Origin: Sphingobium yanoikuyae
GTDB taxonomy: Bacteria > Pseudomonadota > Alphaproteobacteria > Sphingomonadales > Sphingomonadaceae
Direction: 5' to 3'
Length of the DNA: 64,000 nucleotides
Assembly: GCF_013001025.1 (NCBI RefSeq)
Contig: NZ_CP053021.1
Span: 1,488,001-1,552,000 of the forward strand
This document shows, in pieces, positions 39,073 to 63,689 of the stretch. The notes below the pieces were generated by a model. That model did no database searches. It was not told the DNA's origin and was given only the letters and a program-made list of their open reading frames with translations. Position 1 is the first letter of the stretch. Each line of letters opens with the position of its first letter. The position numbers were made by a program, and so were the translations under genes.

Positions 39073-40400
39073 GCGGCGGCAACCCAGGCAAAGCGGATGA
39101 CGATCAATATGGCGAGGAGAAATAGCAGCCAGTCGGCGCGGCTCATCTTGCCGCGCAGCAGCTTCAGGATCGCATGAGCGACAATGCCGAAGGCGATGCC
39201 GTTGGCGATCGAGAAGGTGAGGGGGATGAGGGCAAGGGTGAGGAAGGCGGGAACAGCCTCGAACGGTTCTTCCCAACTGACCTCGACCAGCGGCGCCATC
39301 ATCAGGCTGCCGACCAGGATCAGCGCTGGCGCCGTCGCATAGAGCGGCACCAGGCCGGCATAGGGCGCAGCGAAGATGGTGATGAGGAAGAGGAGGCCGG
39401 TGACGATGGCGGTAAGGCCTGTACGACCGCCGGCTGCGACGCCGGCTGCGCTTTCGACATAGGAGGTGACGGTGCTGGTGCCCGCCGTCGCGCCGACCAT
39501 GGTGGCGGCCGCGTCGGCGATCAGGATGCGGTTGAGATTGGGCACGCTACCATCGGGGCGAGCGAGGCCGGCGCGCTTGGTCACCGCCATCAGCGTGCCG
39601 AGATTGTCGAACAGGTCGACGAACAGGAAGACGAAGATGATTTCCAGCACGCCGATGCCATGGCTGCCGGCGAAGACTGCACCAAGATCGAGATGGAAGG
39701 CCGTGCTGCCCAGCGCCGATACATCATAGGGCGTCGGCGTGAAATGCAGCGCGCCAACCAGCCAGCCGAGCAGGGTGGTGGCAACGATGCCGATCAGGAT
39801 CGCGCCCCGGACCTGGCGGATCGACAGGCCTGCGATCAGCGTCAGGCCGAACAGGGTGAGCAGCACCGGCGCGGAGCGAAGGTCGCCAAGCGCCACCGAG
39901 GTGGCGCTGTTGGAAACGACGATACCGGCATTGCGCAGGCCGATGAAGGCGATGAACAGGCCGATGCCCCCGGCAACCGCCGCCAGCAGATGGGGCGGGA
40001 TGGCGGCCAGGATCATCTGGCGGATGCCCGCCAGGGTCAGCGCCAGAAAGGCGACGCCCGAGAGGAAGACGCAGCCCAGCGCGACCGGCCAGGGAATGCC
40101 CAAGCCCAGCACGACCGAATAGGTGAAATAGGCATTGAGCCCCATGCCCGGTGCCAGTGCCAGGGGCACGTTCGCGACCATCCCCATCAGGATGCTGGCG
40201 AAGGCGGCGGCGAAACAGGTCGCGGCGGCGACGCCGACCAGCGGCATGCCGGCCTCGCTCAGGATCGCCGGGTTGACCAGCACGATATAGGCCATGGTGA
40301 GGAAGGTGGTGATGCCGGCGACGATTTCCGTGCGCACATTGCTGCCGCGCGCGGCTATCTGGAAACGGCTGTCGAGCCAGGACGACAGGGGAGCCGTCAT
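39069..40400 (-). CDS. NCS2/AzgA-type purine permease
   Basis: 443 residues with 12-14 membrane segments. Conserved features are TEIVAGITTFLTMAYI, LAPGMGLNAYFTYSVV, the FVFLFVDLFDNLGTL segment and GATAGTSTVTSYVESAAGVAAGGRTGL, all typical of adenine/guanine/hypoxanthine permeases. It imports purine bases with protons. ATG 40400 is chosen. It is the first gene of a two-gene operon with the exported nucleosidase. Confidence 0.9.
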   Translation of the reverse strand: MTAPLSSWLDSRFQIAARGSNVRTEIVAGITTFLTMAYIVLVNPAILSEAGMPLVGVAAATCFAAAFASILMGMVANVPLALAPGMGLNAYFTYSVVLGLGIPWPVALGCVFLSGVAFLALTLAGIRQMILAAIPPHLLAAVAGGIGLFIAFIGLRNAGIVVSNSATSVALGDLRSAPVLLTLFGLTLIAGLSIRQVRGAILIGIVATTLLGWLVGALHFTPTPYDVSALGSTAFHLDLGAVFAGSHGIGVLEIIFVFLFVDLFDNLGTLMAVTKRAGLARPDGSVPNLNRILIADAAATMVGATAGTSTVTSYVESAAGVAAGGRTGLTAIVTGLLFLITIFAAPYAGLVPLYATAPALILVGSLMMAPLVEVSWEEPFEAVPAFLTLALIPLTFSIANGIAFGIVAHAILKLLRGKMSRADWLLFLLAILIVIRFAWVAAA

Positions 40401-40524
40401 TGCGCGCAACCGGCCAGGAAAACGGAAGGGGCCATGGCCGGCCCGGACAGCGAAGTTGACACCAGATACCCCCTATGCGCGATGGTCGCGATTGTGCGCC
40501 CTATGCCGCTGCGCACGCGCCGCG

Positions 40525-41004
40525 TCAAAGGTAACGATGCATCACAAATGTGTCGACCAGCCCCAGCGTTGGATGGGCAAAGGCATCTGGCACGCGGCCG
40601 ACAATGGCAAAGCCCATTGCCTGCCACAGCGCGACTGCGCGGCTGTTGGAGGAAACCACGAAATTATATTGCATGGCGCTGAAGCCCAGACCGCGGGCCA
40701 GATCGAAGGAGGCGGCGCACATGCGCCTGGCAACGCCACGCCCGGTTGCGTGGCCCGCCGTGACATAGCCGGCATTGGCGACATGGCGGCCGCCGCCGGC
40801 CTGGTTGGCCCGGACGTAGAAGATGCCGAGCAGGGCGCCATCCTCCTCGACGACGCGGACGGTGCGGTCCGGCGACAGCCACAGGGCAAGGGCGTCTTCG
40901 CGACTGATCGCGCGATCGACCGCCAGGGTTTCGCCGGCGCGGAGCACCGGCTCCAACATGGCCCAGATCGCGTCATGATCCGCCGGCGTGACCGGCCTGA
41001 TCAT
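40525..41004 (-). CDS. GNAT-family N-acetyltransferase
   Basis: 159 residues. The acetyl-CoA-binding motif A is HATGRGVARRMCAASFDLARGLG, followed by QYNFVVSSNSRAVALWQAMGF, typical of GNAT enzymes. The substrate is unknown. The start ATG overlaps the mazG stop in ATGA. Confidence 0.9.
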   Translation of the reverse strand: MIRPVTPADHDAIWAMLEPVLRAGETLAVDRAISREDALALWLSPDRTVRVVEEDGALLGIFYVRANQAGGGRHVANAGYVTAGHATGRGVARRMCAASFDLARGLGFSAMQYNFVVSSNSRAVALWQAMGFAIVGRVPDAFAHPTLGLVDTFVMHRYL

Positions 41005-41771
41005 TCCGCCTGCTTCGCCTGCTGCCATAGCGCTTCCTTCTCTTCGAGCGACAGGCCCACGAACGCGTCGCCGGCAATCGCCTCCATCTGACGGAAACGA
41101 CGATCGAACTTGGCATTTCCGCCACGCAAGGCGACTTCGGGGTCAATCTTGAGATGGCGTGCGAGGTTCACGACGGCAAAGAGGAGGTCGCCGACCTCTT
41201 CCTCCCGATGGGCATGGCTGGTCGCGCTGGCGACCTCGTCCAGTTCCTCATGGATCTTCGCGATCGCGCCCTGGGCGTCGGGCCAGTCGAAGCCGGTGCG
41301 GGCGGCCCGCTTCTGCAGCTTTTCGGCGCGCAGCAGCGCCGGAAGCGCCTGTGCCACGCCGGCCATGGCGCTCGGGTCGGGGATCTTGTCGGCGCGTTCG
41401 GCCGCCTTGATGCTTTCCCATTGGGCATGGCCATCCTCGCGCCGGGCGCCTTCGCCAAAGACATGGGGATGACGCCGGATCATCTTCGCCGCGATACTGT
41501 CGATCACATCCTGCAAGCGGAAATGGCCGGCCTGTTCGGCGATGCGGCTGTGGAAGACGACCTGCAGCAGCAAGTCGCCCAGTTCATCGCGCAGGTCGGC
41601 CATGTCATTGCGCTCGATCGCATCGGCCACTTCATAGGCTTCCTCGATCGTATAGGGGGCGATGCTGGCGAAATCCTGCTCGACGTCCCAGGGGCAACCG
41701 GTGTCCGGATCGCGCAGCCGCGCCATGACATCGGCGATCGGCATGATATCGGCGGGACTGGCTTTGGACAT
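41001..41771 (-). CDS. mazG: Nucleoside triphosphate pyrophosphohydrolase
   Basis: 256 residues, two MazG domains. The first has CPWDVEQDFASIAPYTIEEAYEV and DELGDLLLQVVFHSRIAE. The second has KIHEELDEVA and EEVGDLLFAVVNLAR. These Exx(E/D)...ExxD metal sites fit hydrolysis of NTPs to NMP and pyrophosphate, cleaning non-canonical nucleotides. It is coupled to the GNAT gene. Confidence 0.94.
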   Translation of the reverse strand: MSKASPADIMPIADVMARLRDPDTGCPWDVEQDFASIAPYTIEEAYEVADAIERNDMADLRDELGDLLLQVVFHSRIAEQAGHFRLQDVIDSIAAKMIRRHPHVFGEGARREDGHAQWESIKAAERADKIPDPSAMAGVAQALPALLRAEKLQKRAARTGFDWPDAQGAIAKIHEELDEVASATSHAHREEEVGDLLFAVVNLARHLKIDPEVALRGGNAKFDRRFRQMEAIAGDAFVGLSLEEKEALWQQAKQAE

Positions 41772-41906
41772 GGGAACCTTCGCATTGGCTGCTGATGGGC
41801 CTGCGGATAGGCGTTTGCCGGATACAAGGCCACCCCCGATGTCGAACGGAGCGCCGATAGGCGGATATGGTGCCCATGGGGACGCGCATTGGAGCCTGTG
41901 GGAGGG

Positions 41907-43652
41907 TTATTCCGCTGCGGCGACGACATCCTCGTCCTTGACCGCATTGTTCGTCCGGACCTGCACGACCCGACCCCGGTCGAGATGAATGATGACGTCG
42001 GCAAGTGCGACGAGCGATGCCGTATGGGCTATGGCCAATATGGTGATATGGCCCCGTAAACCGGCAATCGCGGTTTCGATCTTAGTTTGTGCGTCGATAT
42101 CGAGCGCGCTGGTCGCCTCGTCCAGGATCAGCAGCCTGGGATGGCGCAGCAACGCGCGCGCGAGGGCGATGCGCTGCCTTTCCCCGCCGGACAGACGGCT
42201 GCCACGATCGCCGACCACGGTATCGAGTCCCTGGGGCAGGGCACCGACGAACTGCCGGGCATTGGCGGCGTCGAGGGCGTTCCACAACTCCTCATCGCTC
42301 GCATCCGCCTTGCCGATGCGCAAATTGGTTGCGATGCTGTCATGCAACAGGAAGACGTCCTGGGGCATATAGGCGATCTGGGACCGCCATTGCCGATCAT
42401 CCTGGGCAAGGTTGACACCGTCGACCAGAATCTGGCCTTCGCTGGGATCGAGCAGCCCCATCAGCATGTCCGCTATGGTGCTCTTGCCTGCACCCGAAGG
42501 CCCGACCAGGGCAATGATCTTGCCGGCGGGCAATTCCAGATCGAGGTTCGCGATCGTCGGCGTGCCCGCGCCCTGATGGGTGATGGATACACGGTCGAAA
42601 CGGACATGCCGGGTCAGGAGGGGCATCTGCCCGCGCTCCGGTCCTTCGGTGCGGTTCTGCTCTGCCGTGAAGATGCGCAGCAGCCTGGCGACATTCTCAT
42701 AGCCTGGCAGGCAGAGGAGCAGTTGCTGGAGCGTGCTTTGCAGGGCGTTGAAGCGCGGCGCGAGGCGCATGAACAACAGCAGCATCGTCATCAACTGCGG
42801 CAGCGGCAGCGCGATGACGGCATAGGCCACATAGACGAACAGGGCTGCGGCCGCACCGCTTGCCAACTGGAACAGGGCGGTGCTGTTCGATGTCAGCCGG
42901 GCGAACTCGACAGTGCCGACGCGCAGCGTTTCCAGCAACCGATCCAAGCGTTGAAGATAATAGGGTTCGCTGTTGAAAGCCTTGGCGATCTTCATGCCGG
43001 TGATGAATTCGAACGCGACATATTGCCGTTCCTGCAGGGAATTCGACATGGATTGCGCATGGCGGGCGATCTTCCGGCGCACCGGGTACAGGCCGAACAG
43101 GGTCGCTGCGCCAACGGTCATGGCGAACAAGGTCATCTGCCAGGATATCAGCGTGGACAGCAGGCCATAGAGCGTCAGCCAGATGATATTCTGGCCAAAT
43201 GACATGAGGCTGAAGACTGCGACCTGGATGCGATCGACATCGTTGCTGAGCGCATGGTTGAGATCCGACCCGCGCATGTTCGCGACCAGCGACCAGCGAC
43301 CATAGCCGATGGCCGTGAACAGGCGCATGCGGATGTCGTCTACCGCCTGCTGCATCGTGCGGGTCATGAGGAGGAGGCGGCGGCGCGACACCAAGGCCTG
43401 AAACACCATGAGGCACAGCATTGCCGTCAGCAACCAGCCGAGCGATATGCTGCCAATCCAGGGCAGTTGAATGCTGCTCTGGGCCGCACCATGGTTGGTG
43501 CCGATCAGTTTCAGCAACGGGATCATCGCCAGCAGGGAGCAGCTTTCCAGAATGCTGCCGATCAGGATCAGCAACAGGATGACGGACGCCTGTCGGCCAT
43601 ATCCCCCGAGGGAAAAACGCGCGAAATCGCTGATCTGACGGAACTGGCTCAC
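41907..43652 (-). CDS. Lasso-peptide ABC exporter (D protein)
   Basis: 581 residues, a fused permease-ATPase half transporter. The first ~320 residues have about six membrane segments. The C-terminal ATPase has GPSGAGKST, LSGGERQRIALARALL and LLILDEATSALD. No C39 peptidase domain is present, as expected for lasso exporters, where the B2 protein cuts the leader. The GTG start at 43652 overlaps the kinase-gene stop (GTGA). It is the last gene of the leftward A-B1-B2-C-K-D operon and probably exports the mature peptide and gives self-protection. Confidence 0.88.
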   Translation of the reverse strand: MSQFRQISDFARFSLGGYGRQASVILLLILIGSILESCSLLAMIPLLKLIGTNHGAAQSSIQLPWIGSISLGWLLTAMLCLMVFQALVSRRRLLLMTRTMQQAVDDIRMRLFTAIGYGRWSLVANMRGSDLNHALSNDVDRIQVAVFSLMSFGQNIIWLTLYGLLSTLISWQMTLFAMTVGAATLFGLYPVRRKIARHAQSMSNSLQERQYVAFEFITGMKIAKAFNSEPYYLQRLDRLLETLRVGTVEFARLTSNSTALFQLASGAAAALFVYVAYAVIALPLPQLMTMLLLFMRLAPRFNALQSTLQQLLLCLPGYENVARLLRIFTAEQNRTEGPERGQMPLLTRHVRFDRVSITHQGAGTPTIANLDLELPAGKIIALVGPSGAGKSTIADMLMGLLDPSEGQILVDGVNLAQDDRQWRSQIAYMPQDVFLLHDSIATNLRIGKADASDEELWNALDAANARQFVGALPQGLDTVVGDRGSRLSGGERQRIALARALLRHPRLLILDEATSALDIDAQTKIETAIAGLRGHITILAIAHTASLVALADVIIHLDRGRVVQVRTNNAVKDEDVVAAAE

Positions 43653-44611
43653 CTATGGTCCTCGCAGTCGGCGCGGACGAGTTCGACCGTCTCTTCCAGT
43701 CGATTGAGGGCATGCGGGACGTGCAGCGTTGCCACCTGGACGCAACGGGCCAGGGCAGCGCAGCCCTGCATGTGACGGGCCTCGTCGGCGGGCGAGAGCG
43801 CTGCCTTCCCGAAACGGGTTATGTAGGAGTAGCGCAGGATCGCCGACAGGGCCTGGGTTCCGGCAAGTCGGGTGAGGCCGGGCTGATCCCCCACGCGGTC
43901 GAGAACATAGAGGCGTTCGGGTTGAAGCTGATCATGGCGGAAATCGCCCATCAAGCGATGCTGGCGTTTGGAAAAGCCGGGATAGACCAATGGCAATGGC
44001 TGCGCTTCGGCCAGTTGCATGGCGTCTGCGGCCTCTTCCGCCAGCTTGAGTTGGCCATAGGCCGGCAGGATTTCGAGCGTGCCGTCCGGGTTGGCGCGGA
44101 TCGCCAGGAGGTCGTCCGTCAGCAGACGATGGCCCGCCCGGAGGAAGGCTGCGGCGGTGGTGGATTTGCCCGCCAGTTTGTCGCCAACGAAGATGACGCC
44201 ATGCCCGTCCAGGTCGATCGCGCTGGCGTGGAGCGTGATGTAGCCGCGCATGTGCAACGCCAGCGCCATGATCGGCCCCAGCAGAGGAAAGGGGAGGTAG
44301 GTCACCGGCGTATCGGGATAGGGCTGAATCTCGATGAGGTCGGGGCCGTGGAACTGGAAGGCCGCAACGTCGGGCCATGCCAGGAAATGCGTCCCGTCCG
44401 TGCGGAACTGCGTGATCACGCCCTCCTCGCGCGACGGCAAGGGCAGGTCGCGGCTGTAGATGATGCGGATGTCGGGCACGGATCCCGCCGGGGCGGTCGT
44501 CAGTTCCGGCAGCGGAACATCCGATTCGATCGTCAGCCCAAAGGCACGATAAAGGGACGAGGCCTTGCTGGCGGGGGCAAGGGCGGGCTGAGGCGTTGGG
44601 CCCATCTTCAT
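43649..44611 (-). CDS. HPr-kinase-like lasso-peptide tailoring kinase (K protein)
   Basis: 320 residues. The C-terminal half resembles HprK: HAS (128-130), P-loop GDKLAGKST (143-151) and RLLTDD (162-167). There is no HPr-system gene nearby. Proteins of this type in paeninodin-like clusters phosphorylate the C-terminal Ser of the lasso precursor, and the precursor here ends in Ser. ATG 44611 is chosen because AGGAGG lies five bases upstream. That site overlaps the stop codon of the cyclase gene, so the two are tightly coupled. Confidence 0.85.
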   Translation of the reverse strand: MKMGPTPQPALAPASKASSLYRAFGLTIESDVPLPELTTAPAGSVPDIRIIYSRDLPLPSREEGVITQFRTDGTHFLAWPDVAAFQFHGPDLIEIQPYPDTPVTYLPFPLLGPIMALALHMRGYITLHASAIDLDGHGVIFVGDKLAGKSTTAAAFLRAGHRLLTDDLLAIRANPDGTLEILPAYGQLKLAEEAADAMQLAEAQPLPLVYPGFSKRQHRLMGDFRHDQLQPERLYVLDRVGDQPGLTRLAGTQALSAILRYSYITRFGKAALSPADEARHMQGCAALARCVQVATLHVPHALNRLEETVELVRADCEDHR

Positions 44612-44612
44612 G

Positions 44613-46502
44613 TCATCCTCCTGCATGTACGATGTGAAATTTAGCCCTCGGAGCGACGGGCCGGGATCGTCTTGCAAGCCAGCGGCCCAGGCTTGCGACC
44701 CGGTAGGCAGCGAATAAGGGGGCGGCATCATTGGCCATGGACTGATCGAACTGCGTGATGGCCGCGCGGGCGACATCAATGTCGACAAATGGCGCCAACA
44801 TGTCAGCCTGCGCATCCAGCATCGTCAGCAAGGATGCCCGGTGACGCGCCATGCCTGTTCCCAACTGGCCGGCAAAGTTGAACTTGTCGCGCCGCAGCCG
44901 GACCTGCTCTGGCAACAGGCCTGCCATGGCGTTCCGCAGGGATGCGCGCGGATAGCCATTGTCGAGCTTGGCGTGGGCCGGGAGCGATACGCAGAATTCG
45001 ACGAGACGGCGATCATAGAATGGGAAGCACAGGCGCACTCCGGCTGCAGCCGCCGAACGATCCAGCACTTCAAACGCATAGGGTTGTTGTGGCGATGTCA
45101 GGGTCGACAGGTGGCGCTGCTGCTCGGTCTGATAGGCCGAGCGGCTGGGCATTGTCGCTGCCCGGCGCAAAGCTATGTCTGTACGACGGACGAGGTCCGG
45201 TGCGACGAGCGCGGTCGTGAAGTTCGGTGAGGTGCGGGGCGGATGTGCATGGTGGACGATGCGCCGCCAATTCTGCCGGAATCGCCGTATCGTCGCGATA
45301 TGATCGAAATGGGGGGACGCTGCCTGCCAGGTCGAACAGCGGAGAATATGGGCCAAGCCATGTGCTTCGCGCAACAAGGTGGCCCAGCGTCGTTCCATGG
45401 CCAGTTCGTTCAGCCGCCCAAACCCGTGGGAAACGACTTCATCGCCGCCATGTCCGTCCAGAAGGCGGGGAAGCCCCAGTTGCCGGGCCCTATGATAGAG
45501 GCGTCGTGAACTGCCCAGATTGTAGGCGAGGCAGGGGCCGTCCTGTTCAGTCAGGATCATGTCCAGTTCCTGCAGCGGATCCTGATGCTCGGTGGGCAGG
45601 AAATGGGGGGCAAAACGCCCTGCTTGCAGAATGGCTTCTATGTGCGGGCCATCCGTCCAGTTGGGACTTGTGTCGAATGTCATGGACAGGCTTGGCACGG
45701 GCGGTCCCGCCGCCGCCGCCCGCAAGCGCGATGCCATCATGGCGATGGACGAGGAGTCCAGCCCTCCGCTGAGCATCACGCCGGCTTGTTCGCTGATCCG
45801 ACAAGAGACCGCCTGTTCGAACAAATGCCGAAACTGCTCGGCGGTTTCCTCATCCTTGGGCGGCTGCGATGCCTCCAGATGCCAGTAACGGCTGATGGTG
45901 AGTTCGTCGCGCGTGACCTGAATGACGTGCCCTGGCGGCAGACGCCGGATTTCGCGATATAGCGTCGTCTGGGCATCGCCGACTATGCCGGCGACAAAAT
46001 CTGCTGCACCAACTTCGTCGATGGCGGATGAAATCTCCGAACCGAGCAGCGCGCCAATCGTTGTCGCTGCCATGAACAGCCTGGGCGAAGCATGATAGTA
46101 GAACGGGCGGACGCCGAAATGGTCACGGGCGCCAAATAATGTCTGTGTCGCTTCGTCCCAGAGCACAAAGGCGAAGTCGCCCAGCAACATGGAGGCGCAG
46201 TCTGTGCCATAGCGCTCGTACAGTGCGGCTATCAGGCTGGCTTCAGGGAGGGCGGGGCGGGGAGGAAGGCCGAGCCGTGCCTCGATTTCTGCGCGATTGT
46301 CGAGCCGGACGTCGGCGGCCACAATGAGGTCCGGACGCCGCTTCTCATGGTCCAACGCCTCCATGCCAGCCCCGGCAAGAATCGTCGGGCCGCTATCGAT
46401 CGCGCAACGAACCCCGCGTGATACCAGGGAGGCGATGCCTTCACCGGGCCAATGCCGTGCCGGCCGGCCATCGCGGTGGAACAGGCCGGCAAAAGCATTC
46501 AT
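44613..46502 (-). CDS. Lasso-peptide macrolactam synthetase (C protein, asparagine-synthetase-like)
   Basis: 629 residues with an asparagine-synthetase-B fold. The N-terminus is MNAFAGLF, so the Cys2 nucleophile of true glutamine amidotransferases is missing and the enzyme should not use glutamine, as in lasso cyclases. The ATP-binding PP-loop SGGLDSSS is at 245-252, and LLDGHGGDEV is near 350. It adenylates the Asp side chain of the core and closes the ring on the Gly amine. The start overlaps the B2 stop in ATGA. Confidence 0.9.
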   Translation of the reverse strand: MNAFAGLFHRDGRPARHWPGEGIASLVSRGVRCAIDSGPTILAGAGMEALDHEKRRPDLIVAADVRLDNRAEIEARLGLPPRPALPEASLIAALYERYGTDCASMLLGDFAFVLWDEATQTLFGARDHFGVRPFYYHASPRLFMAATTIGALLGSEISSAIDEVGAADFVAGIVGDAQTTLYREIRRLPPGHVIQVTRDELTISRYWHLEASQPPKDEETAEQFRHLFEQAVSCRISEQAGVMLSGGLDSSSIAMMASRLRAAAAGPPVPSLSMTFDTSPNWTDGPHIEAILQAGRFAPHFLPTEHQDPLQELDMILTEQDGPCLAYNLGSSRRLYHRARQLGLPRLLDGHGGDEVVSHGFGRLNELAMERRWATLLREAHGLAHILRCSTWQAASPHFDHIATIRRFRQNWRRIVHHAHPPRTSPNFTTALVAPDLVRRTDIALRRAATMPSRSAYQTEQQRHLSTLTSPQQPYAFEVLDRSAAAAGVRLCFPFYDRRLVEFCVSLPAHAKLDNGYPRASLRNAMAGLLPEQVRLRRDKFNFAGQLGTGMARHRASLLTMLDAQADMLAPFVDIDVARAAITQFDQSMANDAAPLFAAYRVASLGRWLARRSRPVAPRAKFHIVHAGG

Positions 46503-46933
46503 TGCCGGACCAGTCCGTCCAGGTCCGCCAGGACGTTGAAGCCGGCCAAGTCCTGTCGTCTGCCGCCAATAATGGGCCTTGCACGATGGTCGAGCAGCCA
46601 GGCATGGGCCTGGAAGCTGCCATCTTCGGAGCGGCGTACACCGATCCGGATCCAGCTTTCATGTCCCATCCAGGCGAGCAACGTCCGTGTGGCCACGGCC
46701 TGGGTCAGGCACGTGGCGCCGGGAACAAGTCGTGCGACGATGCTGACAGCGCGGGCGACTTGGCGCACCCAGAGCGGATTGCGCTGGCCAGTGGATTGCG
46801 GCAACCATTCGCACAGGCGCGCATAGCTGGTGAGGCTGAGGGCAAGACGGACAGCCAATACCACAGACAGTGCGACCGGCAGCAGGAGTGCCAGAAGCAG
46901 CCCTGCCAAAGTGCGATCAGGACGCCGGCGCAT
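46499..46933 (-). CDS. Lasso-peptide leader peptidase (B2 protein, transglutaminase-like)
   Basis: 144 residues. An N-terminal hydrophobic stretch (AGLLLALLLPVALSVVLAVRLAL) is followed by a papain/transglutaminase-like domain with C75 in GATCLTQAVATRTLL and H110 in FQAHAWLLD; D115 or a later Asp completes the triad. It cleaves the leader from the precursor with help from B1. It overlaps B1 by 17 bases and the cyclase gene by 4. Confidence 0.88.
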   Translation of the reverse strand: MRRRPDRTLAGLLLALLLPVALSVVLAVRLALSLTSYARLCEWLPQSTGQRNPLWVRQVARAVSIVARLVPGATCLTQAVATRTLLAWMGHESWIRIGVRRSEDGSFQAHAWLLDHRARPIIGGRRQDLAGFNVLADLDGLVRQ

Positions 46934-47216
46934 GCTGGACGCTGATCAATGTGAACTGCGACAGGTTGCTTAACAGGCTCTCCAGATCCTTGCGGCACTG
47001 TTCCGGTCGGACGTCAAAGCGTTGTTCGATATTGTCCTGCAGTGCGCCGACACTGGTGGGGGTCGCGATCGTTTCCCAGACATGGACGCCGACGCGATTG
47101 AGCGCGAAATAGCGGCTGGAGGTCAGGTCCAGTAGAACTCTCTCATTGTCTAGGTCGCAAAACACGATGTTGGGATCTGCTGCCACGATTGTCGCGGATG
47201 GCCAGGCGATCGTCAT
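46917..47216 (-). CDS. Lasso-peptide recognition protein (B1, PqqD-like RRE)
   Basis: 99 residues. The pattern NIVFCDLDNERVLLDLTSSRYFALNRVGVHVWETI is the PqqD-like RiPP recognition element that binds the leader through its Tyr-Pro-Leu-Gly-Phe motif and presents it to B2. Start ATG 47216 is preceded by GGGGAAGAAAG. The 72 bases between it and the precursor gene could hold a stem that sets precursor abundance, but I see no clear terminator. Confidence 0.88.
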   Translation of the reverse strand: MTIAWPSATIVAADPNIVFCDLDNERVLLDLTSSRYFALNRVGVHVWETIATPTSVGALQDNIEQRFDVRPEQCRKDLESLLSNLSQFTLISVQHAPAS

Positions 47217-47288
47217 CTTTCTTCCCCGCTTCCAAGGGCTTTGCAGGAGAATGGACGCCCCCTCTGTCCGAGAAGGGCGTCCACCCTG

Positions 47289-47429
47289 TCAGGAGAACGT
47301 GAGCTCGCCGCGCGGCGTACCGTCCGGGAAGGTCGCGTCCAGGCTTTCGCCATAGGACGTGCCCTGCGTCAGCGATTCGAACGAGCCGAGTTCGACGAGC
47401 TCGGGCGATTCATAAGACTCCTTTTCCAT
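47289..47429 (-). CDS. Lasso-peptide precursor (A), Gly1-Asp9 ring and C-terminal Ser predicted
   Basis: 46 residues. GAGGAG lies seven bases before ATG 47429. The leader MEKESYESPELVELGSFESL holds the Y6xxP9 xL11 xxx G15 xF17 recognition motif, with T21 at the -2 position, and cleavage is expected after Q22. The 24-residue core (residues 23-46) starts GTSYGESLD, giving a nine-residue ring from the Gly1 amine to the Asp9 side chain. The tail runs 15 residues with Phe12, Pro13, Arg18 and Phe23, ending in ELTFS. Ser24 is the likely phosphorylation site of the K protein. Plug residues cannot be read from sequence; Phe12, Arg18 and Phe23 are bulky candidates. Confidence 0.88.
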   Translation of the reverse strand: MEKESYESPELVELGSFESLTQGTSYGESLDATFPDGTPRGELTFS

Positions 47430-47596
47430 ACTCAACTCCTCATCATCTGCTGAACCATTCAGCGGGTATAAATTGATCGTAAGTAAATGTTTAAGTCAAA
47501 TTCCAATCCATCCGCGGTAACACCTATAGGTATAAACACATATCGCCATGATTTAACTTTGTAGGGCAATGTTTTGCATAAGCTAACATTCAAGGC
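47430..47596. promoter_or_regulatory. AT-rich divergent control region of the lasso cluster
   Basis: Separates the precursor operon (leftward) from the nucleotidyltransferase gene (rightward). It is clearly AT-richer than its surroundings. Reading leftward, TTGACT near 47498 could be a -35 element. A perfect palindrome ACCTATAGGT at 47522-47531 may be an operator. No regulator gene is adjacent. Confidence 0.5.
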
Positions 47597-48757
47597 GTGA
47601 CTGATGTGTTGTTAGATCCCTCCCGCAAGGCACGGAAAATCGTGGACATCGTGAGATGCCATGTGGCCCTGTCCGTTCCGCAGATGATCGTTAGCGTCCC
47701 CTCTCCGGCGATCGACGCGGACGATTGGGCGGACATCATAACAGTTGGGAAATCTTGTAAACTTCTGCTGCACCTTGGTGCCGGGCTCCGCGCCGCTGGG
47801 CAGCATATTCCGGACGCCTTCTCGCGCGAGGAGGACAGGTTCAGGAAGTTGACGCTCGCGATGAACGGCGTGAACATCGCTACAATAACCAATATATCTA
47901 AAACTCTAATCCATGATGAGCTGCGATTTATAGTTTTCAAAGGGCCGCTTGCTCAGAGAAGAATCTATGGCGGATACTTTCATCGTCCCTCATCGGATGT
48001 TGATATCCTGATTGATCGCGGTGATCTGCGTCGCTGCACTGCGCTTCTCCAGGCGGCAGGTTATTTCCTGCCCGCGGAATGTGATCGTATCTGGTGGCGT
48101 GCGTTTCTGGGAGAGCAGCATTTCTTCTCGCGTTCGCCGAACCAGGCAACGGTCGACGTTCATCATCGGCTCCAGCAGCCGGGTTGTCCGCACCCCATGG
48201 ACGTGGGCGCGTTTCTGCGTGAGCCGGCGGATCAGGAATTGGGGCAAGTGAAGGTTCCCTGCATATCGCCAATCCACGAAACCCTGTTGGCAAGCCTGAG
48301 CTTCGTGAAGTCTCTGACCCAGCATTGCCACGCAGCGGCCTATCTTCTGGATTTCTGCGCCGCGATTGCCGGGCTCGATCATGCGGCCTTGGCGATTTTG
48401 CATCAACGGGCAACGGAGCAGAATATCGAGCATAGTCTGCGCATTACCCTGGCCTGTGCCGAAAGCATGTTCGGCTTGGAAGTGCCGGAATTTGCGGAGC
48501 CACTGCCGATCTCGGACCTGTTTGGCGCGGATTTGTCCCTGGCCGTCTTCACGCCCGATGATCCGTCCATTGCCTGGCCGCGCTTGCGGCATTTGCTGTG
48601 GCGGCTATGCGATAACCGGCGAGCCGGCCAGAAACTGGGAACATATATGTGGGTCGGTGGCAGCTTCCTGGCGTCCAAGGCAGCGCGCAAGATACCGGGA
48701 TGGCCGAAGGAAGATCCCACCATTATCCATGTTGCGCCTGTTGCCGCATCGGGCTGA
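47597..48757 (+). CDS. NTP_transf_5-type nucleotidyltransferase, lasso-cluster associated
   Basis: 386 residues. The nucleotidyltransferase core is visible as FIVFKGPLAQRRIYGGYFHR (K115-G116), followed by SSDVDILIDRGDL with the metal Asp pair D134/D136. The rest is alpha-helical and resembles the NTP_transf_5 family. The GTG start at 47597 (MTDVLLDPS) has AAGG just upstream. It is divergent from the lasso operon and convergent with manA. Family members occur in kinase-containing lasso clusters to my knowledge. The target here could be the peptide, or a phosphorylated form of it, but that is inference. Confidence 0.8.
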   Translation: MTDVLLDPSRKARKIVDIVRCHVALSVPQMIVSVPSPAIDADDWADIITVGKSCKLLLHLGAGLRAAGQHIPDAFSREEDRFRKLTLAMNGVNIATITNISKTLIHDELRFIVFKGPLAQRRIYGGYFHRPSSDVDILIDRGDLRRCTALLQAAGYFLPAECDRIWWRAFLGEQHFFSRSPNQATVDVHHRLQQPGCPHPMDVGAFLREPADQELGQVKVPCISPIHETLLASLSFVKSLTQHCHAAAYLLDFCAAIAGLDHAALAILHQRATEQNIEHSLRITLACAESMFGLEVPEFAEPLPISDLFGADLSLAVFTPDDPSIAWPRLRHLLWRLCDNRRAGQKLGTYMWVGGSFLASKAARKIPGWPKEDPTIIHVAPVAASG

Positions 48758-48777
48758 TCGCTCTGCGTGAAAAAGCA

Positions 48778-49563
48778 TCACACCGTTGCGAACAGATAGT
48801 CGGCGTCACTGGCCGCGCGGATCAGGGGAGTGGGTTGGGTCAGCAACCAGCACTCCCCCGCCCGCCAGGTCAGGCCATCGATGTCCCCGCGCCCCCGCAA
48901 CGGAATGAACCAGGCGAGACCGCTGTTGGTCACGTGCAGCGCGTCTCCGCCCTGCATATGTGCCAGTCGCAAACCGAAAGGCCCATCATCTAGCAGGACG
49001 CCGCTGCAGCCAAGTGGACGATGCAGGGCAACAGCAGGGCGCTGCTCGGTTTGCAGATCTCCGGCGGTCGCCTTCGTCTCAAGGCCGCGAGTGCGGTCAT
49101 GTCCATCGCGATTGCAGGTCAGGTCGATATTCTGCTGCACTTCGACAAGAGATATGCCGGCGCCAATGGCATATATGGTGCCAGCCGGCACGAAATAGAA
49201 ATCGCCGGCGCGAGCCGGCCGCCAATCGATGAACTGCGCCCATGCTTCAATTTCCGCCGCATGGTGCTGCAGCGGCTGTTTCAGCGGAACGATCGTGCCG
49301 ATGCCGATCATCGATGCAGGCTCCGCCTCGAGGATGTACCAGCATTCTTCCTGGCCGGTGGATTCGCGGTGGGCGTGAATATGGGTCGACAATCTAACGC
49401 TGGTATAGATGTACCTAACCTGTAGCGGGGGCTTGGTTCCGGACGGAGATCCAAACCACAATTCGCCGATGCGCTTGCCCAATTTGTCGACAGGGTGGTT
49501 AGGGGCGACGTCCTTTCCCCAGATCTTTTCCACGAAATTTGGCTGAAGCTTAATACTTGGCAT
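48778..49563 (-). CDS. manA: Mannose-6-phosphate isomerase, class I-like
   Basis: 261 residues, cupin-type. Zinc ligands are likely in STHIHAHRE and QEECWYILEAEP, with further conserved GDFYFVPAGTIYAIGAGISLVEVQQNIDLT. It interconverts fructose-6-phosphate and mannose-6-phosphate, feeding GDP-mannose for the neighbouring exopolysaccharide locus. It is shorter than E. coli ManA (391) but near the length of the compact bacterial type. It is convergent with the nucleotidyltransferase gene and separated from the acyltransferase gene by about 200 bases. Confidence 0.85.
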   Translation of the reverse strand: MPSIKLQPNFVEKIWGKDVAPNHPVDKLGKRIGELWFGSPSGTKPPLQVRYIYTSVRLSTHIHAHRESTGQEECWYILEAEPASMIGIGTIVPLKQPLQHHAAEIEAWAQFIDWRPARAGDFYFVPAGTIYAIGAGISLVEVQQNIDLTCNRDGHDRTRGLETKATAGDLQTEQRPAVALHRPLGCSGVLLDDGPFGLRLAHMQGGDALHVTNSGLAWFIPLRGRGDIDGLTWRAGECWLLTQPTPLIRAASDADYLFATV

Positions 49564-49761
49564 CGGGCATGCCTTGCGTTGTACCTTTTCGCAGGGCGAT
49601 CGATTGCCTCCGAGGTCTCATGCTCGTCTCCCGCAAGGAATGAGTTCATGAGAGTGATTGATTGGCAGCGGATTGAAATCCGTTCGAACACCTAATCGAC
49701 TGGCAGGATTGCGCAAGACAAGCTTGTCCATTCTTCCAGTTGGCCGCGCCTGTTTGACTGG
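49564..49761. other. Gap between manA and the polysaccharide acyltransferase gene
   Basis: 198 bases. No gene and no obvious hairpin terminator. It probably carries the manA promoter and the end of the polysaccharide operon transcript. Confidence 0.35.
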
Positions 49762-50859
49762 TCAGGAAGAAGGGCTTTCTGCCGCTAACGGCAACGGTCG
49801 TGTCGCGGCATGGCCGTTCAGGGCATCGGTCAGCTTGCGACGGACCCAATTGCCGACGGGGCGTTCAAACATCTCGTTAGACAGGCCGGCGACGGCCAAG
49901 GACAAGATTGTCGCGATCAGGATCTGCATGGGCATGCTGATGCCCCATGCAGGCCCGGCGAGGCGAACCAATTGAAGGATGGGCATGTGGAGCAGATAGA
50001 GCGAGAAGCTATATGCACCCAGTCGGCGCATCAACGGATTGCCCCATAGCATGTCGTTGAACGGATGACGGATTGCTGTGCCCAGAATGACCAAGGCGCA
50101 GGCAACGATCTTCAAAGGGTCTGCATAGTAGATGATGTGTTTCGGATCGTTGGTCACGGGCGGGAATACCCATGCGCTGACTGAAGCAGGGGGTGCGATG
50201 AGGACCCAGATAAAGGCCGCGGTGAACAGCAGCAGCGGCGGGAATAATCGCGTCATGCGGTCTTCCGGGATCTGTCGGACCAGTACTGCGCAGAGAATTC
50301 CGGTCATGAAGATGTGCATCTTAGCCAGGGCAAAGATGCCCGGCAGCCAAGGGCTCGCTGCATAGCAGCCTGCCACGATCAGCCCGATCAGCACATATAG
50401 CCAGCCGCGTAGCGGTTGCTTCGCATGGGTGGCCGCCCAGATCGCCGGGAAGAGAAAGTAGAATTGGAACTCCGGCCCGATCGACCAGAAGACCGATACG
50501 GTACTGGTGAATGTTCCCTGCCGGACCAGTTCGATCAGTCCGATCGGATAGATGAAATCGGCGTAAACGAAGCGATAGATCAGGAAGGATAGCAGCGAGA
50601 CACAGGCGTAGAGCGGCACGATGCGCGCTATGCGCGCCGCAGCGTAGGACGCCAACGCATCTCGGTCGGGCGTTCTGGGGAGGTAGAGATGGCCCATGAG
50701 AAAGCCGCTGAGCGTGAAGAACAGCAGGACGCCATAATCGCCGGCGCGCGGATGCAGAAGTTCCGGATAGCCGAACGTGCGGAAGTGGCAGAATACGACG
50801 AGCAGGGCAGCAAAGCCTCTGATGCCGTCGAGCGCCGGTATATGACGGCCAGGGCTCAT
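49762..50859 (-). CDS. Acyltransferase 3-family membrane O-acetyltransferase
   Basis: 365 residues with about ten membrane segments. The family start is HIPALDGIRGFAALLVVFCH with the catalytic His, and VLLFFTLSGFLMG and WSIGPEFQFYFLFP follow. It probably acetylates (or otherwise acylates) the exopolysaccharide repeat, like GumF/GumG of xanthan. ATG 50859 is chosen because it overlaps the polymerase stop (ATGA); the upstream frame is Arg-rich and unlikely. Last gene of the polysaccharide operon. Confidence 0.88.
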   Translation of the reverse strand: MSPGRHIPALDGIRGFAALLVVFCHFRTFGYPELLHPRAGDYGVLLFFTLSGFLMGHLYLPRTPDRDALASYAAARIARIVPLYACVSLLSFLIYRFVYADFIYPIGLIELVRQGTFTSTVSVFWSIGPEFQFYFLFPAIWAATHAKQPLRGWLYVLIGLIVAGCYAASPWLPGIFALAKMHIFMTGILCAVLVRQIPEDRMTRLFPPLLLFTAAFIWVLIAPPASVSAWVFPPVTNDPKHIIYYADPLKIVACALVILGTAIRHPFNDMLWGNPLMRRLGAYSFSLYLLHMPILQLVRLAGPAWGISMPMQILIATILSLAVAGLSNEMFERPVGNWVRRKLTDALNGHAATRPLPLAAESPSS

Positions 50860-52157
50860 GCGGCGTTTCCTTCCATGCGCGTCAGGCGTCCGCGGGCATA
50901 ACAGAAGCCGTAGACGACCCACATCAGGGCGGCTGTCTTGATTGACAGCAGTGAATTGCTGATGGGCAGGCAGAGTGCGAGGAAGAGCATAATGCCATGC
51001 TTTGCCATCCGGTTGCCGGGATCGCGACCAAAGCTGCTGCAGGCGAGTGCTAACCAGAGCCCGATCGCGATCACCACGGATTGAGCCTGGACGAAATCGG
51101 CCCAGCCGGCGTCATCGAACCGGACCCGATCCGCACGGACGCCCAACAACTGGTCAAGGTCCATCGATCGCAGTGCATCGAGCCCGACGCTGAGTCGTCC
51201 GGGAAGATTGTCTTGGTGCTCCGCCAGAATTCCCAGCGCTTCGCCCCCGACCAATGCGACAAGCAGCAACGGCAGATAGGCGACGCTCCATTGATCCGGA
51301 ACATAGGCGCTGATCGGCAGATAGAGGCAGAAGAGCAGGATCACGCTGAGCGCAAGCCTGCCATCGCACGTGACCAGCAGCACCGTCGTCGAAACCAGCA
51401 TGAACAGTCGCGCGCCGTTCGACAGAGACCGCCACATCGCCGCCGTGAAGATGGTACCGACGATGGCCCAGTTGCCGAGCGATACCGGCTCCAGAAACAG
51501 CGATGATCCGCGATGCAGGCCAAGGCCATCGAGCAGCATGCGGCCGCCGGGACGTTCCGAACTAAGAAATAGGTCGCCACCGGCCCAGAAGGCATCTGCG
51601 TCATAGCCACGGGTCTGCACATAATAGTCGATCACGCGAAAGGTTGAACCAAAGCCGCCAGGGCTCGCCAGTTCCCACAGGCCGACCAACATGATCAGCA
51701 ATTGCAACGACAACACTGTCTGACGCAGCAACGCGCCTTCAATGCGGGTTCCAAGCAGGATGAAGGCCGGGATCAACAATATGTCGCCCAGGATCTTGGG
51801 TTCGAAATATCCCTTGATCGCGCTCGTCAGCAGCGCCGAAAGGACCATGATCCAGGTCAGCGCCAGCCACCGAAAACTATGTTGAACCGGTTGCATGGTC
51901 CCGACCAGCAGCGCGGTCAGAACGATGCTGCCCTGCGCGGCGGACACGATGCCGGCGGTCATCGGGAATAGATGCGCGTTGACCCAGGCCAGGGCCGGAT
52001 TGAAGAGGACCGTGGCGACAAGCAGTCCGGCGGCGACATAGTTGACGAGCCTGTCATGGATCAGGCTGCGTCGATGCACCGCGTCGCGCCGCGCGCGAGC
52101 CGGTAGAGAAAGGGCAATCTCAGCCAAGAGAAGCCTCGACGAGCCTGGCGGCAACAT
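50856..52157 (-). CDS. Wzy/GumE-like polysaccharide polymerase
   Basis: 433 residues with about ten hydrophobic segments and a long periplasmic loop (residues ~180-230) containing FLSSERPGGRMLLDGLGLHRGSSLFLEPVSLGNW. This pattern fits polymerases of lipid-linked repeat units. No sequence motif is decisive. Position between the GumK-like transferase and an acyltransferase supports the role. A GTG at 52079 (MHRRSLIHDRLVNY) is an alternative start that removes the overlap with the upstream gene. Confidence 0.75.
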   Translation of the reverse strand: MLPPGSSRLLLAEIALSLPARARRDAVHRRSLIHDRLVNYVAAGLLVATVLFNPALAWVNAHLFPMTAGIVSAAQGSIVLTALLVGTMQPVQHSFRWLALTWIMVLSALLTSAIKGYFEPKILGDILLIPAFILLGTRIEGALLRQTVLSLQLLIMLVGLWELASPGGFGSTFRVIDYYVQTRGYDADAFWAGGDLFLSSERPGGRMLLDGLGLHRGSSLFLEPVSLGNWAIVGTIFTAAMWRSLSNGARLFMLVSTTVLLVTCDGRLALSVILLFCLYLPISAYVPDQWSVAYLPLLLVALVGGEALGILAEHQDNLPGRLSVGLDALRSMDLDQLLGVRADRVRFDDAGWADFVQAQSVVIAIGLWLALACSSFGRDPGNRMAKHGIMLFLALCLPISNSLLSIKTAALMWVVYGFCYARGRLTRMEGNAA

Positions 52158-53244
52158 CGCTCCAATCCTTGCTCGCCACCGGGCTGCGGCCAGCGTTCAG
52201 TGCCCGATCAAAAGCCTCGACCATTTCCTGCGGGTGATCAGGCCGGTAACCAAAGCGCAGGGCATGGTCGCCAACGGCGAAATCGGGGCAAACGGCGGGC
52301 AGACCGATTGCCTTATATTGCAGGAGTTTGAGGCTGGAATCCGCGAGATAGGCGGCGGCAGCTGCGCGCTGATAGGCCGCGATCCCGACATCGGCATGCT
52401 GGAGATAGGGCAGCGTTTGCGCAAAAGGCATCTCTTCATGCTGGATCACATTGGTCGGAAAGACGCTCTTGGGCGATCCGATGGTGTGGAAGGTGAATTC
52501 CGGGCGTGCCAGCGCGAGGGTGCGGATCGCCCCGGCATCGAACAGCATCGATCCGACTGTGACTGCGTTGCGCTTGGTCGCGTAGGGACTGTCTGTTGCC
52601 TGATTGAGCAAAGCAGTATCGACGCCATGCGGAATGAATAATTTGGGGCAGCTGAAGGCCTCGAAATGCGGGAGCATGGAGCGGGCGACGACCACGATCA
52701 GGTCGATATCGGCCTCCGATTGCCAAAGCATGTCTTCAATGCATTCAGGCACGCCGGCGGTGGATAGAAGATCCGTGGCCCGATAGACGATCCGCGCCGA
52801 GGGTGCGACGGCTCGGATGCGCTTCAGCAATGCCGGCGCAATGCCGGATTCGACGATGATGATGTCTGCCGCGCCTGCCGCTTCGTCCAGCGCGGTGCAG
52901 CGGTTTCTGGCCCATTTGCTGTAAAGCCAGGATTCCACCTTGCTCGATACCGGCAACTTCACCGGATGCCATGCGCTGCGCCACAGATAGGCCTGAAGCC
53001 CGTCCACCTGTTCCCAGGCATTGGCGCGATCAAACAGATCGGCCCGGCTGTCGCCACGCAGGCGCGACAGCCAGCTGTAGCCGATCGACATGAAGGTCAC
53101 CTGATGGCCCTGTTGCGCCATATGGCGCGCCACGAAATGCACGCTCGCGCGGCGCCGGGTCCGATAGTCATGGCGCGAGATGATGAGGACGCGGTGTCCT
53201 TCGGCGTGAACTGGCTGTGGCTTTGCGGCGGATTGTCCGATCAT
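52120..53244 (-). CDS. GumK-like glucuronosyltransferase (GT70)
   Basis: 374 residues. Strong recognisable similarity to xanthan GumK: ISRHDYRTRRRASVHFVARH, IGYSWLSRLRGDSR, VESGIAPALLKRI, YRATDLLST, GHGVD-type IPHGVD, VTVGSMLFD and LADSSLKLLQYKAIGLPAVCP followed by RFGYRP. GumK transfers glucuronic acid to the lipid-linked Glc-Glc-Man acceptor at the inner membrane. It predicts an acidic exopolysaccharide. The start overlaps in ATGA the stop of the GT4 gene upstream. Confidence 0.85.
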   Translation of the reverse strand: MIGQSAAKPQPVHAEGHRVLIISRHDYRTRRRASVHFVARHMAQQGHQVTFMSIGYSWLSRLRGDSRADLFDRANAWEQVDGLQAYLWRSAWHPVKLPVSSKVESWLYSKWARNRCTALDEAAGAADIIIVESGIAPALLKRIRAVAPSARIVYRATDLLSTAGVPECIEDMLWQSEADIDLIVVVARSMLPHFEAFSCPKLFIPHGVDTALLNQATDSPYATKRNAVTVGSMLFDAGAIRTLALARPEFTFHTIGSPKSVFPTNVIQHEEMPFAQTLPYLQHADVGIAAYQRAAAAAYLADSSLKLLQYKAIGLPAVCPDFAVGDHALRFGYRPDHPQEMVEAFDRALNAGRSPVASKDWSDVAARLVEASLG

Positions 53245-54425
53245 GAACGGGCCTCCGTGCTGGCAAGGATCTCGTCATAATAGTCTTCCAGGGCGGCTAC
53301 GCGGTTGCGGAGGTCGAACTTGGCGGCCACATGGGACCGGCCGGCTCGGCCAAAATCGCCGCACAGGTCCGGCGCCCCCAGAAGCGTTTGCAGATGGTCG
53401 GCAAAATCGTGGCTGTTGCGCGATCGTGCGAGCAGCCCGGTCATGCCGGGTTTGATCGCTTCGCGCATCGGGCCATCGTCAAACGCGATCACTGCCATGC
53501 CCATCGCCTGCGCTTCCATCAGCACGATGGGAAGCCCTTCGGAATCGCCGTTTGCCGCGCGCACGCTCGGCATCGCGAAGATGCGGTGACGGGCCATGGC
53601 CGCGAAGACCTCCGCGCGAGATCGTGCGCCCAGGAAATGCGGCTGGATGCCAAGCCGGTGGGCCTGGGCGACCAGGGCGGGCATCAGGGGGCCGCCGCCG
53701 ATAATGGTGAGCGGTTCGCTTCGGACGCGTTCTGGCAGTTTCGCCCAGGCGTCGAGCAGGAAATTGACCCCCTTCTTTTCGACCAGACGGCCGACGAAGA
53801 GGGCGCCCCGGCGGCCATGGGCGGCGGGTGGCGGCGGCAGGCTGGACGTGTCGATACCCAGCGGAATGACGCGCAGCTTGTGGTCGGGATAACCTGCGTC
53901 GAGCAGGCACTGCTTGATCCACTGGGATACGCAGATGATCCCATGGGCGTAACGCAGAAGGAAGGGCTTGAGCATCAGATACCAAAGTCCCTCGGTGCGG
54001 CGCGCATGTTCGCGCGCCGTCACCGTTGCATCATAGCCATGGGCGGTGACGACCAGCGGTATGTTCCTTCGCGCGGCAAGGGACAGGATGTTCGCCCCAT
54101 CCTGCAGGAAATGCGCGTGGATCAATCGCGTCGAGGGAGCCGACAGGACATCGCCGACATGGCGATATCGGCCGGTCAGTCGATTATAGACTTTTTCATA
54201 TTTGCCCGCCTGGGCGCGATGCAACAGATGGGGAGTGTGACCGTTAATAGAGTATCCGTTCAATATGTTCTCAGTTATTATGATCGGATTATATCTATTA
54301 AGACCCTGTATGTGATCTGATATGAAGGTTTCAGAAAGAGGAAGGAAGCCTCTTCTGTATATTGCAACGTTGGGTGTGCCAGATAATTCCACTAGGTGAA
54401 ATTCCTCAATTCGTTGCGGTTTCAT
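53241..54425 (-). CDS. Family 4 glycosyltransferase
   Basis: 394 residues, GT-B fold. Conserved parts are RLIHAHFLQDG, PLVVTAHGYDA, RVIPLGIDTSSL, GALFVGRLVEKKG and SVRAANGDSEGLPIVLMEAQAMG with the EX7E-type nucleotide-sugar motif. It resembles WcaL/colanic-acid-type transferases. The first ~230 bases of the gene (54190-54425) are clearly AT-rich compared with the rest, which suggests a mosaic origin. First gene of the 54.4-49.8 kb leftward operon. Sugar specificity unknown. Confidence 0.88.
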   Translation of the reverse strand: MKPQRIEEFHLVELSGTPNVAIYRRGFLPLSETFISDHIQGLNRYNPIIITENILNGYSINGHTPHLLHRAQAGKYEKVYNRLTGRYRHVGDVLSAPSTRLIHAHFLQDGANILSLAARRNIPLVVTAHGYDATVTAREHARRTEGLWYLMLKPFLLRYAHGIICVSQWIKQCLLDAGYPDHKLRVIPLGIDTSSLPPPPAAHGRRGALFVGRLVEKKGVNFLLDAWAKLPERVRSEPLTIIGGGPLMPALVAQAHRLGIQPHFLGARSRAEVFAAMARHRIFAMPSVRAANGDSEGLPIVLMEAQAMGMAVIAFDDGPMREAIKPGMTGLLARSRNSHDFADHLQTLLGAPDLCGDFGRAGRSHVAAKFDLRNRVAALEDYYDEILASTEARS

Positions 54426-54475
54426 CGATTGGTATATCGAAGCTTATTATCGCTTTCGAGTAAGGCATAACACCT

Positions 54476-59424: not shown

Positions 59425-59458
59425 ATCAGACCCCCTTGGTGCCGACGATCGCTGACCG

Positions 59459-61533: not shown

Positions 61534-61545
61534 CCTATCGGTCCC

Positions 61546-62850: not shown

Positions 62851-62883
62851 GCAATGCCTCCTGTCAGGATACCGGATCGCATC

Positions 62884-63678: not shown

Positions 63679-63689
63679 GGCCATGCTCC

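Follow-up and report, generated by a model that had tools for sequence, protein, structure and literature searches.

We analysed a stretch of 64,000 nucleotides from the Sphingobium yanoikuyae genome (hereafter the window; G000:C1:1488001-1552000 in a genome of 5.94 Mb) and found that it contains a complete lasso-peptide gene set, made up of the genes A, B1, B2, C, K, D and N. These genes very probably encode a kinase-plus-nucleotidyltransferase lasso pathway, like those of paeninodin and pseudomycoidin, whose product would be a 24-residue lasso peptide that is phosphorylated on its C-terminal serine and probably glycosylated. The gene set, how well it is conserved and which target residues are kept are read from the sequences themselves; for the reactions, their order and the placing of a sugar on the phosphate we draw on characterised relatives. 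The genes, with the domain matches on which each assignment rests, are as follows.

41907-43652, minus strand: D, ABC exporter (PF00005 and PF00664 above cut-off; a relative in 12 of 12 loci, the window included)
43649-44611, minus strand: K, HPr-kinase-like precursor kinase (weak match to Hpr_kinase_C, 31.8 bits, cut-off 33.3)
44613-46502, minus strand: C, macrolactam cyclase, asparagine-synthetase-like (PF00733 above cut-off; NF033535 at 477 bits, cut-off 525)
46499-46933, minus strand: B2, transglutaminase-like leader peptidase (NF033537 at 74 bits, cut-off 33; PF13471 above cut-off)
46917-47216, minus strand: B1, PqqD-like precursor recognition element (RRE), leader-binding (PF05402 at 57 bits, cut-off 23; NF033536 below cut-off, 63.7 bits against 80)
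47289-47429, minus strand: A, precursor of 46 amino acids (leader domain NF033521 at 31 bits, cut-off 19)
47597-48757, plus strand: N, nucleotidyltransferase-family protein, divergent from A (PF14907 at 89 bits, cut-off 31.2)

On the minus strand the genes are transcribed in the order A, B1, B2, C, K, D. B1 overlaps B2, B2 overlaps C and K overlaps D, and a single base separates C from K. GAGGAG sits upstream of the ATG of A, and 167 bases separate A from the start of N on the plus strand. An earlier, sequence-only reading of this DNA had described a lasso operon of A, split B1/B2, C, K and D with a divergent N, and coordinates and profiles agree with that description. It had also described a cyclase lacking Cys at position 2; C indeed has none there, and it matches Asn_synthase above cut-off and the lasso-cyclase model below it. 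All seven genes are present in each of the 12 Sphingomonadaceae loci that we compared, the window included, and their co-occurrence is therefore not a matter of chance. An Rfam search of positions 40000-52000 returned nothing.

A conserved precursor and its candidate tailoring enzymes

The precursor A carries a leader with the YxxP motif, already picked out in the sequence-only reading and borne out by the NF033521 match above cut-off, and T-Q stands ahead of the expected cut. The predicted core has 24 residues, with Gly first, Phe-Ser last, and Thr2 and Ser3 near its start. Leader motif, Thr at -2, Gly1 and an acidic residue at core 7-9 (Asp9) are thus all found in A, as in a lasso precursor. 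An alignment of precursors from nine loci has 13 invariant positions, including the leader Tyr and Pro, Thr(-2), Gly1, Asp9, Thr16-Pro17 and the final Phe-Ser. Precursors of all 12 orthologous loci have Asp9 and a Ser at the C-terminus, and in 11 they start with Gly and end in Phe-Ser; the precursors of L117 and L118 fit the usual pattern. The precursor of L119 (genome G835, near 8963-9091) has Ala at core 1 and Asp9, ends in ...LTCGVDGGMS and so retains the final Ser.

Beyond these loci, a profile search found 92 precursor relatives, of which 83 end in Phe-Ser and 86 in Ser, P0199 with its different tail end being counted among the latter. The core table shows ring positions 4, 6 and 7 as the most variable and much of the tail as varying little; the invariance of Asp/Glu at 9 and of the final Ser in that table is by construction, as the core-extraction pattern demanded both. 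An aligned set of 38 precursors was hand-picked from sequences with the usual end and overlaps partly with the nine-locus set. With its variable ring, mostly kept tail and final Ser, the precursor family is a rich source of natural substrates for K and N. The precursors of L119 and P0199 each have two Cys residues and a tail of the form ...LTCG(V/L)xxGMS or similar, in which the LTFS end is gone and the final Ser stays. In P0162, P0200, P0210 and P0212 the LTF(S/T) tail is followed by one or more extra residues.

Among named organisms, a precursor from S. yanoikuyae (P0132) is 65% identical to A, and the same precursor type is encoded on a named Paracoccus plasmid. The sequence-only reading had likened the cluster to the paeninodin type of Firmicutes, a likeness that is sustained in part: the annotated paeninodin-family precursor of Priestia shares 42% identity over 43 residues with A and has a similar tail, but the window precursor gives no match to the paeninodin family model NF033524 at E 0.1.

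K has the His, Lys, Ser and Asp-Asp residues that mark the kinase of kinase-tailored lasso clusters. Across 15 aligned kinases, including those of Paracoccus, Priestia and S. yanoikuyae, H128, G148, K149, S150, D166 and D167 (window numbering) are invariant, and the P-loop GKST, the His and the Asp-Asp pair are kept in every one. By spacing, these residues correspond to H148, G168, K169, S170, D186 and D187 of the lasso kinase BsfK, which itself lies outside the alignment; all of them except G168 are reported to be important in BsfK (PMC10368454). A database kinase named S. yanoikuyae is 75% identical to K. The idea that K is a housekeeping HPr kinase was rejected, a separate short match at G000:C1:3356726 being the likelier housekeeping copy. 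PadeK, ThcoK and SyanK are reported to act on the linear precursor, phosphorylating its C-terminal Ser, with ThcoK and SyanK adding several phosphates (PMC9266682, PMC8498205). As the final Ser is a known kinase target, it is the natural candidate for modification here.

Twenty-two aligned N proteins, the window's included, share invariant D134, D136 and D187, along with K115, G116 and the motifs GEQH and QQP; three such carboxylates would fit a polymerase-beta-like nucleotidyltransferase. N occurs in all 12 orthologous loci, with the lowest identity (24%) at L072, where the assignment is backed by PF14907 at 130 bits. It is divergent from A in six loci and follows D in five, and at L072 it lies upstream of A on the same strand. 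A database N named S. yanoikuyae is 88% identical to the window's. A PF14907-type gene in the cluster is the mark of the pseudomycoidin type, on the assumption that PsmN is itself a PF14907 protein. PsmN is reported to put one or two hexoses on the phosphate of pseudomycoidin, possibly with the help of a host glycosyltransferase (PMC9266682, PMC8498205). N probably belongs to the lasso pathway, and its presence in 12 of 12 loci, together with the hexose addition by PsmN, makes a phosphoglycosylated product more likely. The sequence-only reading had expected a phosphorylated lasso; kinase and conserved Ser speak for that, and the expectation is incomplete in leaving N aside.

By analogy with these systems, we propose that B1 would bind the leader of translated A and present it, and that K would phosphorylate the C-terminal Ser (core residue 24) while the precursor is linear. 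B2 would then cleave after ...T-Q, and C would close a ring round the tail between Gly1 and the Asp9 side chain, giving nine residues in the ring and 15 in the tail. N may add a sugar (or a nucleotide) to the Ser phosphate, and D would export the product. The computed monoisotopic masses are 2486.12 Da for the lasso, 2566.09 Da for its monophosphorylated form and 2728.14 Da with one hexose in addition.

Several points weigh against this pathway. A promoter and terminator scan round A and N recognised none. K and C both score under their curated cut-offs. Six of the 92 precursor relatives (P0162, P0200, P0205, P0209, P0210 and P0212) end in a residue other than Ser, although P0209 and P0205 look truncated or frameshifted part of the way through the core. 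Since BsfK modifies Ser3, the phosphorylation site is not certain here. The three carboxylates kept by N would fit a nucleotidyltransferase, so that sugar transfer draws on a single published example, and there a host enzyme may have taken part.

These points bear on three alternatives. The best placed, which we regard as unlikely, is that the lasso is phosphorylated only and that N is a neighbour with another job, for example in the polysaccharide locus, and leaves the peptide alone. N is indeed transcribed divergently and lies between A and the polysaccharide genes, and three of nine plasmid loci described below (Tistrella pTM1, Azospirillum TSH100 and Priestia) are without an annotated nucleotidyltransferase-family gene in the stretch opened, the Priestia stretch ending at the end of its record. 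Yet N accompanies the cluster in every orthologous locus, divergent in some and after D in others, and PsmN reportedly acts on the phosphate in pseudomycoidin; we set the unrelated neighbour aside on the strength of the 12 loci. Very improbable in our view is a kinase directed at another residue, such as a ring Ser or Thr. BsfK is reported to phosphorylate Ser3 (PMC10368454) and the window core has both Thr2 and Ser3, but all 12 loci and 86 of 92 relatives keep the C-terminal Ser, L119 and P0199 with their divergent tail ends among them, several ring positions vary, and SyanK, from the same genus, is described as using the C-terminal Ser. Slightly less probable still is a silent cluster with no product, which the lack of a consensus promoter and the reported laboratory silence of the bsf cluster would favour, and against which stand seven open reading frames that are all retained at 97-100% protein identity in a second genome (G093).

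Relation to characterised lasso systems

Both the cluster architecture and the presence of a kinase-type cluster in Sphingobium are already known. S. yanoikuyae ATCC 51230, the source of SyanA and SyanK, belongs to the same genus and is reported to have an HPr-like kinase acting on the C-terminal Ser, as we propose for the window. SyanA may be of the window type, perhaps even identical to its precursor, or of the type 65% identical to it; the review accounts of the Syan cluster do not mention a nucleotidyltransferase, unlike the window. Paeninodin from Paenibacillus (PadeA/PadeK) resembles the window in its kinase, split B1/B2 and C-terminal Ser, and the Priestia paeninodin-family cluster differs in gene order, with C first. 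Pseudomycoidin (PsmA, PsmK and PsmN of Bacillus pseudomycoides) combines kinase and nucleotidyltransferase, as the window does, and as described is a model for phosphate followed by hexose; its host is a Firmicute, unlike ours, and the likeness is drawn from published descriptions. The bsf cluster of Bradymonas sediminis is reported to hold the same seven genes, A, B1, B2, C, D, K and N, and to be silent under laboratory conditions (PMC10368454). BsfK represents another type of lasso kinase, modifying Ser3 and not the C-terminus (PMC10368454), and the bsf precursor is described with a C-terminal Asp and Ile at -2, where the window has a C-terminal Ser and Thr at -2.

The exact product of the window is plausibly undescribed. 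Four strings taken from the window core and from the S. yanoikuyae one appeared in none of the main texts of the literature searched, and the string DLTFS retrieved no lasso paper among the matches listed. An undescribed product had been predicted from the sequence; that much is plausible for the exact peptide, whereas its type, on the published accounts of SyanK, is already described in Sphingobium. The sequence-only reading was thus right on what is present and largely right on the product, and it overstates novelty and omits the likely role of N.

Distribution of the cluster and other lasso loci in the genome

The kinase-type cluster is sparse and patchy. A search for K in 94 genomes of the genus gave some match in 89 and a long match in only six. 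Of these, three belong to lasso loci, namely those of the window, of G093 (98% identical) and of G036, apparently S. scionense (76%). A search for K in 298 genomes of the family and for the precursor profile in 397 (10 of 397 positive, the window included) added nine loci (L067-L072 and L117-L119). Across the 385 genomes searched at class level, the precursor profile was positive in the window's own genome only, and a genome-contig scan gave one locus, that of Sphingobium scionense.

The other three long matches, at L064, L065 and L066 (G018, G061 and G068), are K relatives of about 35% identity, two of them with an adjoining PqqD-like gene. We rejected them as the same lasso system, A, B2, C and D all being without a match there, and label them, from their sequences, as apparently another HPr-like kinase system in the genus. 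A distant kinase and a C match also occur together at L073, L075 and L077-L081, with a B1 match in all but L081 and no precursor of this family; these are possibly other kinase-type ribosomally synthesised and post-translationally modified peptide (RiPP) systems.

The sequence-only reading had noted that no isopeptidase, TonB receptor or FecR accompanies the cluster. With the proteins of the same genome as queries, we found zero matches to any of the three across the 64-kb window, but the genome does carry two such clusters elsewhere. Two further B2 genes mark the loci L093 (G000:C1:2360000-2379000) and L094 (G000:C1:1606000-1625000), each with a one-piece B, C, an Atxe2-family isopeptidase (NF033523; 753 and 701 bits, cut-off 400) and a TonB receptor. 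L094 has FecR and L093 a FecR-like match; neither locus has a match to K or N. With these two isopeptidase/TonB clusters in addition to that of the window, the organism holds three lasso clusters of two types. The benenodin/Atxe2 type shares the lasso maturation genes with the window and differs from it in its one-piece B, isopeptidase, TonB receptor and FecR, and in having no K or N match. The window was accordingly rejected as a classic sphingomonad cluster that has lost isopeptidase and TonB receptor: its B is split, its precursor scores 15 bits on the benenodin model NF033522 against a cut-off of 33, and the classic clusters exist separately in the genome.

Both classic loci adjoin DsbC-like genes, which fall under the NCBIfam cut-off, the L093 copy lying above a Pfam cut-off; a TraE gene also adjoins L093. 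Each of the two loci, L093 and L094, also has a candidate precursor upstream of B; their lengths are 46 and 44 residues. A similar arrangement is annotated on the plasmids pBSY17_1 (Sphingobium sp. RAC03) and pCHQ1 (Sphingobium indicum UT26S).

The polysaccharide setting

The point most worth specialist attention is where the cluster lies. On the side of N it borders an exopolysaccharide locus, and on the opposite flank a conserved chromosomal gene.

41001-41771, minus strand: mazG, conserved chromosomal gene (NF007113 above cut-off)
48778-49563, minus strand: mannose-6-phosphate-isomerase-like gene, the first gene of the polysaccharide locus (TIGR00218 at 28 bits, cut-off 116; no Pfam match)
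49762-63693: exopolysaccharide locus (Pfam matches to an acyltransferase, GumK-like and other glycosyltransferases, a pyruvyltransferase, a WecG-like transferase and, below cut-off, a Wzz-like protein)
62884-63693: polysaccharide export protein (Pfam match), at the end of the exopolysaccharide locus

Some genes in 49762-63693 have no match, and the locus is context that lasso synthesis does not need. Since the cluster sits at the edge of this locus, we infer, with less firmness than for the pathway, that the lasso product acts together with the polysaccharide of the cell, in matrix or capsule.

For each kinase-type locus we determined how far A lies from the closest export gene (PF02563). The distance was at most 20 kb in 11 of the 12, ranging from 6.5 kb (G194) to 18.8 kb (G036); this limit was chosen after the positions had been seen, and the scoring was not blind. 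The one miss was G093, at 172 kb. By comparison, these genomes have 13 other B2 loci, of which one lay near an export gene (G835, 8 kb). Five of the 13 were on contigs without an export-gene match, where such a gene may be concealed by the end of the contig. Six of the control loci were opened, and a K match was found in none. Fisher's exact test of 11/12 against 1/13 gives p = 3e-5, a value that overstates the case, since sites are shared among related genomes. One genus, g32, contributes five of the 12 loci, apparently all at a single site (four at 17.5 kb and the fifth at 17.2), and the window and G093 share another, leaving fewer independent sites (4 to 7).

The association recurs on plasmids beyond the sphingomonads. 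Relatives of K occur on 13 plasmid records, with lasso maturation genes near K in nine; the four that were dropped comprise two without annotation and two without lasso genes. Within stretches of up to 12 kb on each side of K, polysaccharide or sugar-activation genes were found in eight of the nine, from Paracoccus, Sulfitobacter, Halopiger, Azospirillum (two), Thalassobaculum, Butyrivibrio and Priestia, of which Thalassobaculum (galE and one glycosyltransferase) and Priestia (galU and one short polysaccharide gene) are weak positives. The remaining plasmid, Tistrella pTM1, has FecR and TonB genes instead. A nucleotidyltransferase-family gene lies in the opened stretch of six of the nine. Among 22 records of plasmids with a classic B protein, eight were opened and none had glycosyltransferase or polysaccharide genes.

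Part of this setting has been reported before. Paeninodin-like clusters and a related family of linear polyphosphorylated peptides are described as frequent in capsular polysaccharide loci of Bacilli in a 2026 paper (PMC13381572), which, in the parts bearing on these peptides, leaves their role open; the words proteobacteri and Pseudomonadota are absent from its main text. A rumen survey of 2020 reports kinases, nucleotidyltransferases and glycosyltransferases (36% of complete lasso clusters) in Firmicutes including Butyrivibrio (PMC7533575). Judged by titles, we recognised no further report of a polysaccharide association in the literature. With the loci above, and with controls, the setting now extends from Bacilli to alphaproteobacteria and a haloarchaeon, and a place beside sugar-polymer genes hints at a purpose for phosphorylated lasso peptides. 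A role in matrix or capsule could be tested in a sphingomonad that also has two classic lasso clusters for comparison.

A bolder form of such a role is a conjecture to which we give little credence: instead of being secreted as a free molecule, the lasso would be attached, by way of the phosphate on its C-terminal Ser, to a sugar of the exopolysaccharide made next door, or to a lipid-linked precursor of that polymer, and the knotted peptide displayed on the matrix, with K providing the phosphate handle and N the sugar link, and with lasso and polysaccharide genes travelling as one unit.

A serious competitor, to which we assign a little less than an even chance, is that nearness to polysaccharide genes has no functional meaning, variable chromosomal regions being places where many accessory genes gather. 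The region is variable, as synteny with two relatives breaks beside mazG: blastn against G036 and G075 (L105/L106; 91% and 94% DNA identity) stops at 41766. G075 has other genes beyond the break, and no lasso or polysaccharide gene of the window was matched in either of the stretches compared, of which that of L105 extends mainly to the far side of mazG. The polysaccharide side is missing from G093, and G835 shows that another kind of B2 locus can also lie near an export gene. Against this stand the single such case among the 13 other lasso loci (five of them on contigs without an export-gene match), the absence of polysaccharide genes from all eight classic plasmid clusters opened, and the renewed appearance of the association in Rhodobacterales, Rhodospirillales, a member of the Clostridia and a haloarchaeon.

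In G093 (L062 and L120) the isomerase-like gene is reduced to a match of 20 residues, followed by a run of N letters and by serine-recombinase and integrase-core genes. In S. scionense the cluster and mazG are on different contigs; the cluster lies near a mannose-1-phosphate guanylyltransferase-like gene and an isomerase relative, to which the window's isomerase-like gene is 53% identical. The two Azospirillum plasmid loci (L132 and L137) combine kinase, PqqD and cyclase genes with a 2-oxoglutarate-Fe(II) (2OG-Fe(II)) oxygenase, a cupin and three genes annotated as tail fibre protein, and their annotated small proteins are unlike this lasso family. On the Halopiger xanaduensis plasmid pHALXA01 (L127), a haloarchaeal cluster of lasso type, with genes for PqqD, B2, asparagine synthase, a kinase relative, a nucleotidyltransferase and an ABC exporter, lies amid glycosyltransferase, flippase and sulfatase genes, and the candidate precursor ends in Thr, not Ser.

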